From Nitrosomonas sp. (GTDB lineage Bacteria; Pseudomonadota; Gammaproteobacteria; Burkholderiales; Nitrosomonadaceae): a DNA stretch of 64,000 bases. The notes under the pieces are model-generated. The model searched no databases. It was given only the letters and a program-made list of their open reading frames with translations, and was not told the DNA's origin. Where the stretch lies: NCBI GenBank assembly GCA_017984435.1, contig JAGNZK010000006.1, positions 1 through 64,000 on the forward strand, written 5' to 3'. This document shows positions 27,170 to 38,854 of the stretch, one piece after another (position 1 is the stretch's first letter; every line of letters starts with the position of its first letter). Made by a program: the position numbers and the translations under genes.

Positions 27170-27868
27170 ATGAGAACAACATTAATTACAGGTACGAATC
27201 GTGGCATTGGACTTGAATTTGTCCGGCAATACGCCATGGGCGGTTGGTGGGTTTTTGCTTGCTGCCGCAATCCGGTAACAGCCGAGGCGCTGAATCGTTT
27301 AGCCGCGCAATATCCGGATCAGATAACCATTCATGCATTGGATGTAGCCAATCATGCGCAGATTGAACAATTATCTCAGGCGTTATCCAATCAGACGATT
27401 GATTTGTTGATCAATAATGCCGGTGTTTATCCGCCGGGGCAGGGCGATACTTTCGGGAAAACGGATTATGCCGCATGGGCGTATGCTTTTGAGATCAATA
27501 CCATGGCGCCGCTTAAAATGGCTGAGGCTTTCATTCAGCAAATTTCCGGAAGTCAGCTCAAGACCATCATCACGATTACCAGCAAGATGGGCAGCATCGC
27601 AGACAATCGTGGTGGCGGCAGTTATATCTACCGTTCCAGCAAATCGGCGGTGAATATCGTGATGAAGAGTTTAGCGATTGATTTGCAAGCGCAGCGGATT
27701 ACAGCCGTTTTATTGCATCCGGGATGGGTCAGAACCGATATGGGTGGTCCCAATGGATTGATTTCGACCGAGCAAAGTGTCACCGGTATGCGTCACGTCA
27801 TCAGCAATCTGAGATTTGAGGATTCAGGCAAGTTTTATGCGTTTGATGGGCAGATTGTGCCTTGGTAA
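27170..27868 (+). CDS. Short-chain dehydrogenase/reductase
   Basis: The 232-residue SDR has the cofactor motif TGTNRGIGLEF, NNAGVYPP, and the catalytic Tyr-Lys pair in YIYRSSKSAVN. It resembles the C-factor/sniffer-like SDR group with an NAD(P)H cofactor; the substrate is unknown. The last 71 bp recur, diverged, at 33942-34012, beyond the accessory block that starts right after this gene. It is 20 bp downstream of the yggS-like gene. Confidence 0.9.
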   Translation: MRTTLITGTNRGIGLEFVRQYAMGGWWVFACCRNPVTAEALNRLAAQYPDQITIHALDVANHAQIEQLSQALSNQTIDLLINNAGVYPPGQGDTFGKTDYAAWAYAFEINTMAPLKMAEAFIQQISGSQLKTIITITSKMGSIADNRGGGSYIYRSSKSAVNIVMKSLAIDLQAQRITAVLLHPGWVRTDMGGPNGLISTEQSVTGMRHVISNLRFEDSGKFYAFDGQIVPW

Positions 27869-27944: not shown

Positions 27945-30900
27945 ATGAGCCTAAGCACAGCAGATCAGAAAAATCAAAATGATTTAAAGAAAGAGCTGCA
28001 GAATGATCCAAAGAAGCACTCCAAACTGGAGAAATTGGCAGCAGCTCTGATAAGTCGGCTTCTCGGTGTACCGATTGCGGTCGCAAAATCTGGCTTTCAA
28101 CATGGCGGTGATGCCGGTCCAGCAGGCCAGCAAGGACGACGTTTCCGGTTGGAATGTAAGAAGTACAGCGATACCACTAGCTTGAGTGACCGGGAGTTAC
28201 TAGGTGAAATAGATGATGCACTGGCTCGAGACACTGCATTAGAAGCCTGGTTTCTTATAGTAACTCGCAATGTTCCTGAGCAACTCCGACAAAAACTTAT
28301 GCTAAAAGGTGAAAAAGAAGGGGTGCCTGTAGAAATCATTGATTGGGAGGACCACGAACTAGCACCTCTTGCAGCACTATGTGCTTTTGCACCTGATTTG
28401 GTAAAAGTTGAATTCTCGGAAGAGGCTGGAACATTGGCATACGCACTTCAACCAGTCTCAGCCAACGCGATTGAAATGTTACGACGCAATCTACAGTCTT
28501 GGTGCCTTGGTTTTGAGGCATTACGAAGCCGATCGCATGAGAAGCTCAGTAAAATCTGGAATTTGCCTCGTGAATCGAACGCGATACTGGGACAAAACGC
28601 AGCTGGTGGTGCGTGCACAAAGAGAATTAAACGCGCCGCAGTTCATCAAGCCCTCAACGATTGGTGGTCTGCATCGACAAATGCAGACTCTCCTGCAGCA
28701 GTTATTGGTTGGGAGGGAGTTGGAAAGACTTGGGCAACAATTAATTGGTTGATCGAGAAAATTGATGAGCAGCCAATCGTCTTGGTTGTTCCGTCTTCTT
28801 CAGCAGTTGCCCTTTCTGGTATTTCCGAAACAAAGGTAAAACAGTTCTTAGCTGTTCGGCTTTATGAGCTCAGTGGAGTTCGAAATACCGAGCATTGGTT
28901 ACGACGGCTTGATTACCTGCTCAAACGACCCACCCATGAGAAGCCTGTTCTGACTATTTTCTTTGATGGTTTGAATCAAGAACCATCTGTTCAGTGGCTA
29001 CCGCTTCTCAAGATTTTGCAAGGTGAATCTTTTTCAACAAAAGTACGAGTAATTATCAGCACGCGCAAGCATCACTTTGAAAACAAGCTATCAAGCCTTC
29101 GCGGCCTGAATTCTGCGGCGATACCCATTGAAGTGGATAGTTACGATACAGTACCAGATGGTGAACTCGACCAGATGCTAGCGTTTGAGGGCTTAACTCA
29201 GACAGATTTACACCCAGACCTAATTGAGCTAGCCCGTACACCTCGCTTATTCGCACTTGTAGTTCGATTTCGCGATAGATTGATCGAAGCAGGCCAAGTT
29301 ACTGTTCACAGACTACTTTGGGAATATGGTCGTGATACCTTGGGAGTCCGTGCCGGAAAGTCATTCAGCGAAAATGAATGGCAAACCTGGTTAAAAGCGA
29401 TTGCACAGAAATACCGCGACGGCATCAAAGAGCACTACACAGTTAAATCTCTTGGGGAATCAGTAAGTCGTCCCGATCTTAACGAATCAGAAAATTATGC
29501 ACGCCTGAGTGACATCATCGATGGCCGGTTTGCTGAGTCTGACTTATCAGACAATTTACACTTTACTCCGACAGTAATCGAACATGCTTTTGGTGTTGCG
29601 CTATTAACCCACCTTGACACCGTGGCGGAAGCTAATTTTACGTCACTTCATACCGCACTCACGCAATGGCTCGACCCCATCGTGGGACTTGACGAACGTG
29701 CGGAAATCCTGCGAGCGGCTGTTTCTATTTTGCTAGAACAAGATTCTAAGCCTCCAGTTCAAGCAGAAGTACTTGTCACAACATGGCTGCAAACTCAGAA
29801 TGTAACCGATAACCACCGCAGAGAATTAGCCGCACTTGCCCCGAATCTCATAAATGCATTACTTGTCGCAATAGAGCAATCGGACAGTGATACTCATGCC
29901 TCTGCGCGACTTTGGGCTGTTAATGCGTTACGCGTCATTCCACGGGATAACTACGCAGCTGTGACCGTGATATTCGCACGAATAAAGCAGTGGTTCAGTA
30001 TCGTCTCCAGAGATGTCTACCCACATCAAGGCGCAGATTATGAAAAAAATCGATCTGAAGGCTTTATACGCCGGATTGGCATCGACTCATCAAGAAATGT
30101 TACGATTGCCGGGGTAGTGCTGGAGCTTGTTGATCAGTACGATGGCACATTACAACTAATAGCACCTTCGATTATGGAAGGATTTCCACTTGCTGATGCG
30201 CTACCAATTTTTGAAGCAGCAGCAATCACACTAGCAATTCGAAATCGTTGCGAAGGCTGGGATGCTCTAAAATGGCTCTGTTTATTGAACGAAATCGATC
30301 CAGATGAAACATCCTTGGTTTTACGCGGACATGCAGAAAAAATCCGACAGCGGCAACCGGAGTCAGGTATAAATCCAGGCATCCCTGATCGTATCGCTGC
30401 ACTTCTCCTTTGGTTGACCGGCCAGGAGTCAGACGAAACCGCTGCCGCAATGATCAATCCGCGCATTAATCACGGATATTCCTATGAAAGGGATTACTTA
30501 CCGAATCCGGGTCGTAGTTTTTTTGCGCTAGAAAGGCAGCATGCCGACCTTGCTCTAACCGATCCCGGATCGTCTTTAATCCGGCGTGTGCAAAGAACTA
30601 AAGAGTTTTGGTTCGACCCGAACTTCCAACCCCCAACTTCCTTTATTACCGAAATTCGCGAACTCGCAACTTGCATTGAAGTCGACAAACTCAATAGACA
30701 CGGCTCATATACCACTGAAGATCACAATTTCAAGCAATTAGAGCATTCTTTTGCCCGATGCACACCTGATCTGCTGGCTGATATGTTGCGCCGTAAAATC
30801 CAGAGTCTCACTTTTTGTCCGGCGGAATCTCGTTATTGGAGTGCTATTCATGTAACCGATCATCTACTTTTGGCCGGTGAAAAAGAAGCTGTGGCAGCGA

Positions 30901-32603
30901 AAAATCTGCGATTAAGTGGCACCGATCCTGATGGGAAACAAGAATATTACGTTGCCAATCAGCTTTTATTGGTAGAAATACTGAAACTTGATGCTCGAGC
31001 TCAGTTTGATGCATTAATCAGTGCGGGCTTAGAATGTATTTTGGATGACATCGGCCAAGTTTTACAGCCGCCCAGCCAGGAAGATGTTGATGCACTGATT
31101 ACTCGTTATGCTAATGGTTCGTCTAAACAAAAGAACGAACTTCTCCTTCTTTTATCGATCCATCCAGTTGAGTACAGTGACAGCGCCTGGTCATGGCTAA
31201 CTGGTTTCGCACACCAAACTGATCATGAGTTCTGTCACATTGCCTTCCAAACCCTTGCTCTTTCCAATGCAGCTTGCTTTGGACAGATGTTGATGGCAGA
31301 AAATTGGCATTGGAGCGCAAACAAACATTTCTGGATTAATCACTACGGCACTGGCGCGATTATCGAAGCGACACAAGCGTTTCCTTTTGATCAAATAGCA
31401 CCGCGATTAGCACCATGGCGGTTGCTGGAAGCTGCTCGTCTGCGTGGTGCTCATCCTGAAGAAATACGATTGGCGGCTGAAATAGTAGGATATATTCTAT
31501 TCGCCGAAAAAGTCAGTGAGCCTGATCCGGGATCAATCTTATCGTTCGACCGGAATGCTGCCAAGATTTCCCCCTTTTCGTTTTCTATTACACTACACCA
31601 AAGTCAAACTGATACCAATGATCCATCTGCTGCATTTAGGGCAACTATGGATGATGATGCATGGATAAAAGCGCATCAGCTTGCCACCAAAGTAGCCATT
31701 TCTAGAATAGATGAAGCAAGAATATCTGGCGCAGATTTATACCTTACGATTTTGAGTTCTGCTGATTTCGAACCTGTTCTGAAGTATGCCTCGAATATGG
31801 TTGAGCATTGGCTTGAAGGTTCTCGTGAACTTACAACGGATTTCAGGCGCCGTGTTCACTTGGCAGAAGGCACTTATCTTGCACTTTGTGAAGCGCTTCT
31901 TTCTTATGATCCTCCACAAGGTGTGAGTTTGTGGCGATCTCTCCGCGCAACGATATCAACACGCTATCTGGGCAAAGCAAGTATTGAGGATTCCTTGCAC
32001 ATGATCTTTCGTGTTCGTAATTCACCAGAAGTCATCGCACTCCGTGAAGAGTTGCTTGAATTAAAGTACAGTAATACTGATCAAGATTTGTTAGATCTCG
32101 CAATTGCAGCCTCACTCAACGGTAAAGCAGATTGGTTGGCCGCCATGATTGAATCCGATCAAAAATCCACACTTGTATGGAAGCGAAAACGTGGCGTGGT
32201 TCTTTCTGGATTTACTGCAAATAATACGCTGCCTGTTGCAGATGCTTGGCCGGATGGTGAAATTAAAACAGCTCACGCTTTACTACTAACCAGATCAGCA
32301 CGTTTTCGATGGATTGAAGCCTGTGCTCACCATTGGTGGAAAGTCTATCTTAAAACGAAGGATCCAGCTGAGGCTTATGCCGCCTGGGTACTTTTCCTCA
32401 ATGCGGCAGATCCTCGTGCCTGGATATGGATGGATCAAGACATTCAGGCAGCAAACGATTCCAGTAGTTTCTTTAAACTTAAGTTGAGTCATTTACAGCT
32501 CAACCGATCAAAACTAAAGCGAGCCATGGAGAAGCGCACTGAAAAACTTAATAAGAAATTATTTGATAGAGATATTTGTACTGGAATAGGTCCCTGGGAA
32601 TAA
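27945..32603 (+). CDS. Avs-like STAND NTPase with N-terminal PD-(D/E)xK nuclease
   Basis: This is a single 1552-residue gene. Residues of about 25-160 form a restriction-endonuclease-like domain: Glu29 in LEKLAAALI, HGGDAG with Asp56, and RLECKKY with Glu70-x-Lys72. This is the PD-(D/E)xK pattern of Mrr/Cap4-like effectors. Residues of about 240-500 are a STAND-type NTPase: Walker A GWEGVGKT (255-262), Walker B LTIFFDGLNQ (Asp341) and ISTRKHHF (371-378). The remaining 1000-odd residues are predominantly helical without a recognised domain and probably form the sensor. This is the layout of Avs antiviral sensors, which bind a conserved phage protein, oligomerise and activate the nuclease. It has no partner gene, and a weak AAGAA ribosome site precedes the ATG. 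Assignment to a known Avs type is not possible by eye; a defence role is inferred from architecture. Confidence 0.72.
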   Translation: MSLSTADQKNQNDLKKELQNDPKKHSKLEKLAAALISRLLGVPIAVAKSGFQHGGDAGPAGQQGRRFRLECKKYSDTTSLSDRELLGEIDDALARDTALEAWFLIVTRNVPEQLRQKLMLKGEKEGVPVEIIDWEDHELAPLAALCAFAPDLVKVEFSEEAGTLAYALQPVSANAIEMLRRNLQSWCLGFEALRSRSHEKLSKIWNLPRESNAILGQNAAGGACTKRIKRAAVHQALNDWWSASTNADSPAAVIGWEGVGKTWATINWLIEKIDEQPIVLVVPSSSAVALSGISETKVKQFLAVRLYELSGVRNTEHWLRRLDYLLKRPTHEKPVLTIFFDGLNQEPSVQWLPLLKILQGESFSTKVRVIISTRKHHFENKLSSLRGLNSAAIPIEVDSYDTVPDGELDQMLAFEGLTQTDLHPDLIELARTPRLFALVVRFRDRLIEAGQVTVHRLLWEYGRDTLGVRAGKSFSENEWQTWLKAIAQKYRDGIKEHYTVKSLGESVSRPDLNESENYARLSDIIDGRFAESDLSDNLHFTPTVIEHAFGVALLTHLDTVAEANFTSLHTALTQWLDPIVGLDERAEILRAAVSILLEQDSKPPVQAEVLVTTWLQTQNVTDNHRRELAALAPNLINALLVAIEQSDSDTHASARLWAVNALRVIPRDNYAAVTVIFARIKQWFSIVSRDVYPHQGADYEKNRSEGFIRRIGIDSSRNVTIAGVVLELVDQYDGTLQLIAPSIMEGFPLADALPIFEAAAITLAIRNRCEGWDALKWLCLLNEIDPDETSLVLRGHAEKIRQRQPESGINPGIPDRIAALLLWLTGQESDETAAAMINPRINHGYSYERDYLPNPGRSFFALERQHADLALTDPGSSLIRRVQRTKEFWFDPNFQPPTSFITEIRELATCIEVDKLNRHGSYTTEDHNFKQLEHSFARCTPDLLADMLRRKIQSLTFCPAESRYWSAIHVTDHLLLAGEKEAVAAKNLRLSGTDPDGKQEYYVANQLLLVEILKLDARAQFDALISAGLECILDDIGQVLQPPSQEDVDALITRYANGSSKQKNELLLLLSIHPVEYSDSAWSWLTGFAHQTDHEFCHIAFQTLALSNAACFGQMLMAENWHWSANKHFWINHYGTGAIIEATQAFPFDQIAPRLAPWRLLEAARLRGAHPEEIRLAAEIVGYILFAEKVSEPDPGSILSFDRNAAKISPFSFSITLHQSQTDTNDPSAAFRATMDDDAWIKAHQLATKVAISRIDEARISGADLYLTILSSADFEPVLKYASNMVEHWLEGSRELTTDFRRRVHLAEGTYLALCEALLSYDPPQGVSLWRSLRATISTRYLGKASIEDSLHMIFRVRNSPEVIALREELLELKYSNTDQDLLDLAIAASLNGKADWLAAMIESDQKSTLVWKRKRGVVLSGFTANNTLPVADAWPDGEIKTAHALLLTRSARFRWIEACAHHWWKVYLKTKDPAEAYAAWVLFLNAADPRAWIWMDQDIQAANDSSSFFKLKLSHLQLNRSKLKRAMEKRTEKLNKKLFDRDICTGIGPWE

Positions 32604-32740: not shown

Positions 32741-33745
32741 CTATTGACCGATAGCATCAACCCGGAAAGTCTCTCCGCAGTTGGAACTACTCTGCGCTGG
32801 CGCATTCATAAGCAATTTCTCGAGATCGGCGCCTGGGGCTAGGTCGGCAATCAGATTCAATTGAATCTCCACCAACATGCCTTGGTCGCAATTGAGCTTG
32901 ATACGCTCCTTGGCGGTAGATCCCAGTACGGCGGCTACGCGATTGAGAAAATCTTCGGTACGGACCTGCTGACCGATTCGGCGATTCATAAAATAAGCCA
33001 TGCCGGAATCATTGAACTGACGTGTCAAATCCACCGATAAATCAAAAAATTCTTCCATGGCTTTAGTCTGGCAAGTGCCATGTTTATGCCATTCGTGACG
33101 CTCCAGACAAGAGCCTGCTGTCACGCTGGGCATGACTTCCGCTAATGCAGCTTGCGAAGTGGAATCCAATTGAACCGCCGGATAATCACAGAAATTATCT
33201 TTTTTTCCTTTGACTTCACCGCAGAATCCGTAGCTTATGCCACATTTTTGTTTATTAGGCCATAAGCCATGCAAAGTAAAATGTTTGGCTTGATAGACGT
33301 GCGGATCGGTAATTTTACACTCAGGTTTTTGTGGTTTGGTTTCACAGAAAGCGGGTTGCCATGACAGTGCGAGCACATAACTATCCGCTTGACCGGCAAC
33401 ACTGCAACTATTGTTGCCGTTGCCTCCGGTTCCGCCGCCAGTTGTTATCTGGGCTTGACCGCATGCAGCGCTAACCCAACGCTCCTTAGGGTTAGCAGCA
33501 GGCAGGATAATCCGGTACCAGTCGGGATAATTCGGATTAGTCACTTCGATAATGTTGTATTGGTTACCCGCCAGAATTTGCGCATTATCCGGGTTGGTCG
33601 ATTTGTTTTTTGAAACATAAGCCGGGCAGGATTGCTGCGCAGAGAAAACGCCTGTTGCTTTGTTTGCCCAGATTGGGTGGATATACCCGATTGTTAATAT
33701 GGTCAGAAAAATCTGAAGAACGACACTTTTTCGTAGACATATCAT
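32741..33745 (-). CDS. Exported RNase T2 family ribonuclease with SH3-like domain
   Basis: The ATG at 33745 (GAGGAGAAATAAA upstream; an earlier TTG exists) gives 334 residues with a signal peptide (VVLQIFLTILTIGYIHPIWA). Residues of about 40-100 resemble a bacterial SH3 module (YNIIEVTNPNYPDWYRI). The RNase T2 domain carries both catalytic segments, HFTLHGLWPN and LERHEWHKHGTC, with their histidines, plus many cysteines. It should cleave RNA in the periplasm or outside. It is convergent to the STAND gene, inside the block bounded by the SDR-derived repeats. Confidence 0.9.
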   Translation of the reverse strand: MICLRKSVVLQIFLTILTIGYIHPIWANKATGVFSAQQSCPAYVSKNKSTNPDNAQILAGNQYNIIEVTNPNYPDWYRIILPAANPKERWVSAACGQAQITTGGGTGGNGNNSCSVAGQADSYVLALSWQPAFCETKPQKPECKITDPHVYQAKHFTLHGLWPNKQKCGISYGFCGEVKGKKDNFCDYPAVQLDSTSQAALAEVMPSVTAGSCLERHEWHKHGTCQTKAMEEFFDLSVDLTRQFNDSGMAYFMNRRIGQQVRTEDFLNRVAAVLGSTAKERIKLNCDQGMLVEIQLNLIADLAPGADLEKLLMNAPAQSSSNCGETFRVDAIGQ

Positions 33746-33941
33746 TTTATTTCTCCTCGATGGATTAGGCAAGAATAAAACGCAAACGGGTCTTGTATGA
33801 CTAATTTATCATTATTCAGATGGATCATTGAATTAACTGTGATATTTACCACACTAAAACCGGCTTATTTTGAACACCAGATACTAGAAACACGTGTGAA
33901 TACAACTGGATAATTATCTCAATCGCGTAAAGTATCGCATA

Positions 33942-37042: not shown

Positions 37043-38854
37043 ATGCCGATTGTAAATGATTACACAGCATTGCTTACAGGCTCATACTGGGGGGGTATCG
37101 AAGTTACCAATCGTCCGACCCTAGTAACGTATTCCTTTGCCACTAGCGCCCCGGGCACCGACGAAGGCGTGATTGGGACACCTGCTTTTGCCACCTTTCA
37201 GGCGTTTACTGCTACCCAGGAAGCGCAAACTCGGACAGCACTTGCCGAGTGGGGAAATGCCAGTGGCCTTACTTTCATTGAGGTACCCGCCGGTGCCAGC
37301 GAAATTACCTTTTCCGCCTACGATTTCACCGGCTCCCCATACGATGGTGCCGGTGGGGTTGGCTTTTACCCTTTCGGTAATTGGAATTTTTTCTCTTTTC
37401 CGAACTATCTCGACGGTTGGAATGGTGCGGGAAATGTCCTGCTGAATAGCGACTTTATCACTGCCGAACAATTCGATTATGGTCTTATTCTGCACGAAAT
37501 CGGACATACTCTCGGACTGAAACATCCCACCGAAACCTGGACGAGCGCTGCCGGTATTCTGCACGACCAGGTACTAGCGGTGGACGATCCCAGTTTGACG
37601 ATCATGAGCCAGCTAGGTGGCCCGCTTGTTCATTTGGCCGCTCTCGACATTGCCGCCATCCAGAATATCTATGGGTTCAATAGCGCTGATTTGACCAACT
37701 GGTCCTACGATAATCTTAATAATATCCTGACTCAGACCGCTGGTGCCGGCGCTGTCACGTTGCGCGGCACCAATATTCGTGATGTGCTCAATGGCGGCAC
37801 AGGTAATAATACATTGACCGGCTTATTTGGCGATGACTCGATATTCGGTAACGGCGGTAATGATTTGATGTTTGGCGGTTCGGGCAACGATTTACTGAAT
37901 GGTGGTGCCGGTAACGATACCATGCATGGTGGCTTCGGCGATGATAAATACGTCATTAATACTGCGCTCGATCAAATCATTGAATTCGCCGGTGAAGGCA
38001 TCGATACGGCGACTTCGAGTGTCACCTATACATTGCCTGCTGAAGTTGAAAAATTGACACTCTCCGGTACCGCAGCAATCAATGGCATCGGCAATACGCT
38101 CAATAACACGATCACTGGTAATACTGCTGTGAACACGCTGACGGGAAATGATGGTAACGATACGCTCGACGGCAAGCTTGGCAATGACATTCTGATCGGA
38201 GGGGCAGGTAACGATACCTATATTCTGGATAACAGTAGTGATCAGGTGACCGAACTGGCCGGTGCAGGTACCGATACCATTAAGGTGGGTTTTACTTTCG
38301 ATATGGCACCGATCGCCAATGTCGAGAAACTGACACTGACAGGCACACTGGCGATCAACGGTAGCGGCAATAGTTTAGCCAATACGCTGACAGGGAACGC
38401 CGCTGCAAACATACTCAACGGTAACAGCGGTGCCGATAAACTCCTGGGTGCCGCGGGTGATGATAATCTAAATGGTGGTCTTGGCACCGACACATTAACA
38501 GGCGGACTTGGTCGCGATACCTTGTCCGGTGGCAGCACGGATATTGATATCTTTGTCTATACCGCAATCGCAGATAGCGGTATCGGTGTCGCTAATCGCG
38601 ATAGTATTACCGATTTCGATGCGGTCGATCGTATCAGTCTTGCGGCAATTGATACCAACCCAGCGTTAGCGGGCGATCAAGCGTTTACCTTCGTTGGTAA
38701 TGGTGCGATCACGGGTAATTGGCAAGTGGCCTATCAGATTGCCGGTGCCGACACCCTAGTATCGATCAACGCGACAGGCACTCCGGCAGTAGAGATGGAA
38801 ATATTATTAGTGGGTTACAGCGCTGGATTGACGTCGTTGGATTTTTTGTTGTAA
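37043..38854 (+). CDS. Serralysin-like M10 metalloprotease with RTX repeats
   Basis: The 603-residue protein has the zinc site HEIGHTLGLKHP (His151, Glu152, His155, His161) and a Met-turn at TIMSQLGG. These mark the M10B/serralysin peptidase, although the usual Met-turn MSY is MSQ. From about residue 245 there are many RTX nonapeptides (GGTGNNTLTG, GGSGNDLLNG, GGAGNDTMHG), interspersed with a repeated TYTLPAEVEKLTLSG-type module. The C-terminus is hydrophobic (SAGLTSLDFLL), like type I secretion signals. There is no N-terminal signal peptide. It likely degrades proteins outside the cell. No exporter or inhibitor gene is adjacent. Confidence 0.85.
   Translation: MPIVNDYTALLTGSYWGGIEVTNRPTLVTYSFATSAPGTDEGVIGTPAFATFQAFTATQEAQTRTALAEWGNASGLTFIEVPAGASEITFSAYDFTGSPYDGAGGVGFYPFGNWNFFSFPNYLDGWNGAGNVLLNSDFITAEQFDYGLILHEIGHTLGLKHPTETWTSAAGILHDQVLAVDDPSLTIMSQLGGPLVHLAALDIAAIQNIYGFNSADLTNWSYDNLNNILTQTAGAGAVTLRGTNIRDVLNGGTGNNTLTGLFGDDSIFGNGGNDLMFGGSGNDLLNGGAGNDTMHGGFGDDKYVINTALDQIIEFAGEGIDTATSSVTYTLPAEVEKLTLSGTAAINGIGNTLNNTITGNTAVNTLTGNDGNDTLDGKLGNDILIGGAGNDTYILDNSSDQVTELAGAGTDTIKVGFTFDMAPIANVEKLTLTGTLAINGSGNSLANTLTGNAAANILNGNSGADKLLGAAGDDNLNGGLGTDTLTGGLGRDTLSGGSTDIDIFVYTAIADSGIGVANRDSITDFDAVDRISLAAIDTNPALAGDQAFTFVGNGAITGNWQVAYQIAGADTLVSINATGTPAVEMEILLVGYSAGLTSLDFLL

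Follow-up and report, generated by a model that had tools for sequence, protein, structure and literature searches.

An Avs-like nuclease-STAND gene of Nitrosomonas, probably an antiphage alarm, with a putative sensor that fits no Avs type tested

The window analysed here is the first 64,000 nucleotides of contig JAGNZK010000006.1 of Nitrosomonas sp. (assembly GCA_017984435.1), and it contains a gene for a 1552-residue protein (27945..32603, forward strand) with a predicted nuclease, a STAND nucleoside triphosphatase (NTPase) and a large predicted helical solenoid. We read it, at a probability of roughly 0.78, as an Avs-like abortive-infection gene whose product would act on its own as an alarm against phage, because of its domain order, conserved residues, homology to Avs2, solenoid model, defence neighbours at related loci, sparse spread and repeated decay. 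The best reading is that of an Avs-like gene not assignable to any of the Avs types tested.

The gene is a single open frame with an ATG start, and the start is backed by a relative (L002, 78% identical) that begins at the same place. Comparison with the nearest relative (78% identity) gives nonsynonymous (dN) and synonymous (dS) divergences of 0.137 and 0.848, and the frame is therefore under purifying selection. The protein is matched once in the 2.80-Mb assembly, by itself. The coordinates of the gene and the positions of its nuclease and Walker motifs are those given by an original prediction made from the letters alone, and their conservation is beyond chance. The features are as follows.

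27945..32603, + strand: whole gene, 1552-residue nuclease-STAND-solenoid protein (open frame, full-length relatives, dN/dS)
27957..28349, + strand: predicted PD-(D/E)xK (restriction-endonuclease-like) domain, residues ~5-135 (model, Avs2 profile alignment)
28110..28112, + strand: Asp56, putative metal ligand (22 of 22 alignment rows; local predicted local distance difference test score [pLDDT] <50)
28152..28160, + strand: Glu70-x-Lys72, putative catalytic ExK (conservation; strand 64-72 of the model)
28509..29333, + strand: STAND/NACHT-like NTPase core, residues ~189-463
28707..28730, + strand: Walker A GWEGVGKT, residues 255-262 (sequence, 22-row alignment)
28950..28976, + strand: Walker B strand and loop with Asp341, residues 336-344 (alignment; model strand 336-341)
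29334..29744, + strand: linker after the NTPase core, mostly helical, residues ~464-600 (model, low to middling pLDDT)
29745..32600, + strand: predicted helical solenoid, putative sensor, residues 601-1552
27170..27868, + strand: short-chain dehydrogenase gene, flanking and outside the system, a site marker in Nitrosomonas (Pfam)

Nuclease, STAND and solenoid regions

Conservation was read from an alignment of 22 family rows, several of which are near-identical, so that they are not 22 independent cases, and one of which (L012) extends beyond the end of its locus. All 22 rows keep D56 and E70, and 21 keep K72, which L051 replaces by Arg. In Walker A, the glycines of the G-x-G-K core and K261 are invariant in all 22, as is D341-G342, and N344 is kept in 21. 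The model of the N-terminal region has a helix-strand order fitting a restriction-endonuclease-like domain, and Pfam matches in the N-terminal parts of 25 relatives include NACHT in seven at 0.1 or better (best 1.8e-6) and, weakly, Mrr_cat in three (best 0.052). The top Foldseek match of the N-terminal model is Avs4, with NLR proteins also matched; the VIA alignment with Avs4 (8dgf_A) begins at model residue 10, and several VIA alignments with NLR proteins extend to residue ~600. A PD-(D/E)xK effector at the N-terminus, as in Avs1-4, is thus predicted by motif, homology and fold, and a STAND NTPase with Walker A and B motifs is found by conservation across the 22 rows, by Foldseek and by hhalign to Avs2. 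Profile homology to both domains of Avs2, Avs4 as first Foldseek match and the NACHT matches of seven relatives among 25 support the original prediction of a nuclease joined to a STAND domain.

The model of residues 600-1552, 953 residues in all, is nearly all-helical and of high confidence (pLDDT 90), a predicted repeat or solenoid of the kind expected of a large C-terminal Avs sensor. Pfam finds no match at E 0.1 or better for these C-terminal 953 residues, in agreement with the earlier description of about 1000 residues without a recognised domain. Residues 1201-1250 (31545-31694) form the least conserved 50-residue block, with a mean identity of 0.27 where all other blocks have at least 0.42, and they hold the sole listed stretch of the C-terminal model at pLDDT <50.

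The two halves of the protein have diverged unevenly in three pairs of relatives. L019 and L025 have a dS of 0.183 in the N-terminal part and 0.018 in the C-terminal part; L029 and L036 are 69.7% identical in the former and 84.4% in the latter, and L030 and L033 are 94.3% and 81.5% identical, respectively. These differences may reflect recombination between the effector and putative sensor halves.

Comparison with Avs types and bNACHT proteins

Profiles of the family were compared with three sets: Avs2, Avs3a and an Avs4-like pair of proteins, one each from Azospirillum and Frateuria. The Avs2 set was collected with PDLC02164 and has four aligned rows, and its profile matches the solved Avs2 structure 9o4e at 1.1e-196. 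The family profile aligns with it by hhalign at 97.5% probability (E 5e-12) over residues 24-491, covering the nuclease and STAND domains, and there the alignment ends. The full profile reaches a probability of 4.3% with Avs3a (two rows), over a STAND stretch only, and of 50% with the Avs4-like pair (two rows), over the STAND domain only. For the C-terminal part, no match is found with the four-row Avs2 set (probability 0.1%, E 0.47), with the two Avs3a rows (0.2%) or with the two rows of the Avs4-like pair (0.1%), so that none of the types tested is matched by the putative sensor half. The original suggestion of a new sensor is supported insofar as the C-terminal part has no sequence-profile match to these three sets; its fold may or may not equal that of a known Avs sensor. 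The 50 fold matches listed for this part do not include Avs4, an absence that leaves room for a shared fold.

Avs2 (AVAST type 2; PADLOC PDLC02164, PDB 9o4e) is similarly a single protein of ~1500 residues with a homologous nuclease and STAND front, but its C-terminal part is not matched by that of the window family, and the window protein is missed by the PADLOC Avs2 model at E 1 or better. For Avs3a, neither effector nor sensor homology was found in the profile comparison with two Avs3a rows. For Avs4 (PDB 8dgf) a PADLOC model exists (PDLC02169), which the window protein does not match at E 1 or better, and Avs5 has a Sir2 NADase as effector instead of a nuclease (PMC12931631). Proteins related to bNACHT and NLR, such as bNACHT25, also have an N-terminal effector (a nuclease in bNACHT25), a NACHT NTPase and a C-terminal sensor (PMC12169576); the Pfam NACHT domain is matched in the relatives counted above, whereas the window protein itself has no such match. 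No title or abstract opening naming such a family was found in the literature searches, and the family may already have been drawn as an unnamed clade in bNACHT or Avs surveys.

The curated libraries searched were PADLOC-DB 2.0.0 and NCBIfam 20.0, each at E 1 or better, and Pfam, in which AAA_22 alone is found in the window protein, at 0.13 and under its cut-off. A PADLOC search had been proposed with the original prediction, and it returns no family at E 1 or better. Annotation with PADLOC-DB 2.0.0, NCBIfam 20.0 and the Pfam cut-offs overlooks the protein, because all three miss it as searched.

Distribution, decay and genomic neighbours

Scanning genome contigs produced 115 pattern matches; relatives are encoded by 33 of these, which fall at 32 loci. 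A single open frame of 1400 residues or more is present at 26 of the loci, and the remaining six are broken or cut. Matches span from near the N-terminus to the C-terminus, and the architecture is therefore conserved as one unit. The hosts include Nitrosomonas, Sedimenticola, Desulfoferrobacter, Azospirillum, Bradyrhizobium, Paraburkholderia, Pseudomonas and Stenotrophomonas, as well as bins of Nitrospinota, Dadabacteria and Latescibacterota, such that full-length relatives, partly 50-63% identical to the window protein, are sparsely spread over several phyla. In a tree of 30 rows, the two Nitrosomonas proteins lie in a starred set of nine rows with Sedimenticola, Dadabacteria, Latescibacterota and Nitrospinota, and Paraburkholderia and an uncultured beta proteobacterium are placed elsewhere. 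This pattern suggests horizontal transfer without proving it, as bins may hold foreign contigs. Matches are present in 11 of 72,556 plasmid records, two at a cover of at least 80% and one more at 80%, and in none of 50,697 phage records, and no match to viral contigs was confirmed.

Within the host family, 7 of 126 genomes have a match, including that of the window and one weak match of 45 residues in another genus. Of the 86 Nitrosomonas genomes, 80 match the flanking dehydrogenase (E 1e-60 or better), while six hold any of the STAND gene. The copies are broken in four of these six, and those of the window and G012 are intact. In G023 the gene is split between two frames, in G043 it is also split between two frames with stops listed, in G091 it lies on two contigs with stops listed, and in G038 about 40 residues remain. 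The gene or its remnant stands directly behind the same dehydrogenase in the window, G023, G043 and G038. At a further locus (L097 in G040) the ribonuclease T2 gene follows the dehydrogenase after 614 bp, and the interval between the two shows no significant remains of the STAND gene. The G012 copy is located elsewhere, adjoining a piece with a match to a type I restriction subunit (L017).

Neighbours were scanned individually at 14 loci, with a strong match defined as E below 1e-60 to a defence model; as a control, the 43 other proteins of the window have a best listed E of 1.4e-55. Seven of the 14 loci have a strong defence neighbour, which is not a rate, as the loci were picked by hand and not drawn at random. 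They code for GajB and GajA of Gabija (L019), type I restriction-modification (L017 and L030), DRT UG9 (L031), DRT2 (L035), Dsr1 (L025) and type IIG/DrmMI (L029). At L021, 118 bp separate the family gene from an Avs4-like gene upstream of it, which matches part of the model at E 1.4e-23. Record annotations add VapC just upstream and AAA and RloB genes downstream at L016, and SAVED and XamI restriction-modification genes no more than 8 kb away at L014.

A set of 124 neighbours (within 3 kb, at least 140 residues) was selected from loci other than L014, L015, L016, L036, L047 and L048, and 111 of these were scanned in pools of 70 and 41, the 13 dropped being seven from L044, four from L045 and one each from L046 and L028; neighbours of L015 lie outside every scan. 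Among the matches listed, which are for the best 25 of 296 and the best 25 of 47 families, are AbiLi (4.8e-71), PDC-M11A (2.9e-116) and PDC-M45B (2.6e-89). The call of a defence gene in the original prediction is thus backed by the neighbours of a good share of the relatives, by sparse spread and by repeated decay, but not by the neighbours of the window copy itself.

Several loci share gene arrangements. A STAND-type gene for 1724-1735 residues adjoins the family gene in Azospirillum (L021:2676-7883) and Frateuria (L043:12823-17997); the two products are 25% identical, and that of Azospirillum matches the Avs4 and PDC-M54A models. In Sphingobium/Novosphingobium (L016, L044, L045, L046), a conserved gene pair follows the family gene by ~116 bp and is annotated in L016 as an AAA ATPase and an RloB-domain protein. 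In two Latescibacterota bins (L030 and L033), the gene is flanked by one gene that matches HsdS and another that matches PDC-M03A; behind them comes a type I restriction subunit, and all share the same strand, as scanned in L030 and by homology in L033.

Mechanism, alternative readings and flanking genes of the window

Avs1-4 are antiphage proteins whose nuclease effectors cut host and phage genomes on recognition of terminase, portal or Ksap1 (PMC12931631). By analogy, the solenoid would keep the window protein in an off state bound to adenosine diphosphate and would recognise a product of phage infection, most likely a phage protein. Ligand binding would then bring about nucleotide exchange and oligomerisation of the NACHT/STAND domain, joining the N-terminal PD-(D/E)xK domains, which would cleave phage and host DNA and so stop the infection together with the cell, with protection by abortive infection as the presumed outcome. 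A tentative extension, somewhat short of even odds, is that this is an undescribed Avs-like type, with a solenoid recognising a phage component unlike those of the described types, that has spread horizontally among soil, nitrifying and other environmental bacteria. The Avs types with a known trigger revealed phage proteins sensed directly by bacteria, such as terminase and portal (PMC12931631), and this family, conserved and Avs-like in front, with a putative sensor outside the types tested, is a lead to a further trigger.

Several observations weigh against an Avs-like alarm. The window protein lacks any PADLOC or NCBIfam match at the threshold used, and among eight aligned members one each weakly matches the PADLOC models for Aga REase-TIR (0.00063), Cas12u4 (0.0066) and Avs2 (0.029). 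Catalysis is not assured, because residues 53-62, which carry D56, are modelled at pLDDT <50, because K72 is replaced by Arg in one relative (L051), and because the Pfam model NA-iREase1, of inactive NACHT-associated restriction endonucleases, is matched by 1 of 25 relatives (0.0028). Six of the 14 loci (L022, L023, L038, L039, L041 and L042) have no defence neighbour above background, the LmuB match at L038 (5.8e-17) being within it, and no recognised defence system is held by the neighbours of the window copy. This last point would also suit a STAND protein that plays no part in defence and is a housekeeping regulator or a repair factor, which is nonetheless very improbable given that the gene is rare in its own genus and broken in most of the genomes there that hold any of it, that defence genes adjoin it at other loci, and that it is found in several phyla at the identities noted above.

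The same front could belong to a sensor of the bNACHT type, activated indirectly through the change of a host factor during infection, with the solenoid watching a host process; bNACHT25 is a precedent for host-mediated sensing (PMC12169576). We consider this rather unlikely, since the Avs2 profile homology spans the nuclease as well as the STAND domain and the top Foldseek row is Avs4. Still less probable is a system directed at plasmids or conjugation, in which the solenoid would detect some property of mobile DNA that enters the cell, and the element would be destroyed by the nuclease. The restriction-endonuclease-like N-terminal domain and the restriction-modification genes beside several relatives (L014, L017, L029 and L030) agree with it, but the plasmid records with a match mean that some copies are themselves plasmid-borne, and Avs1-4 act against phage (PMC12931631). 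An Avs-like alarm is the preferred reading.

Two other genes of the window may be mentioned. Just behind the STAND gene and on the opposite strand, 32741-33772 codes for a Ribonuclease T2 family protein (E 5.6e-20) with ~130 extra N-terminal residues. Farther on, 37043-38854 is an open frame for 603 residues with a HEIGH-type motif and glycine-aspartate-rich repeats, which by eye resembles a secreted protease of the serralysin type.
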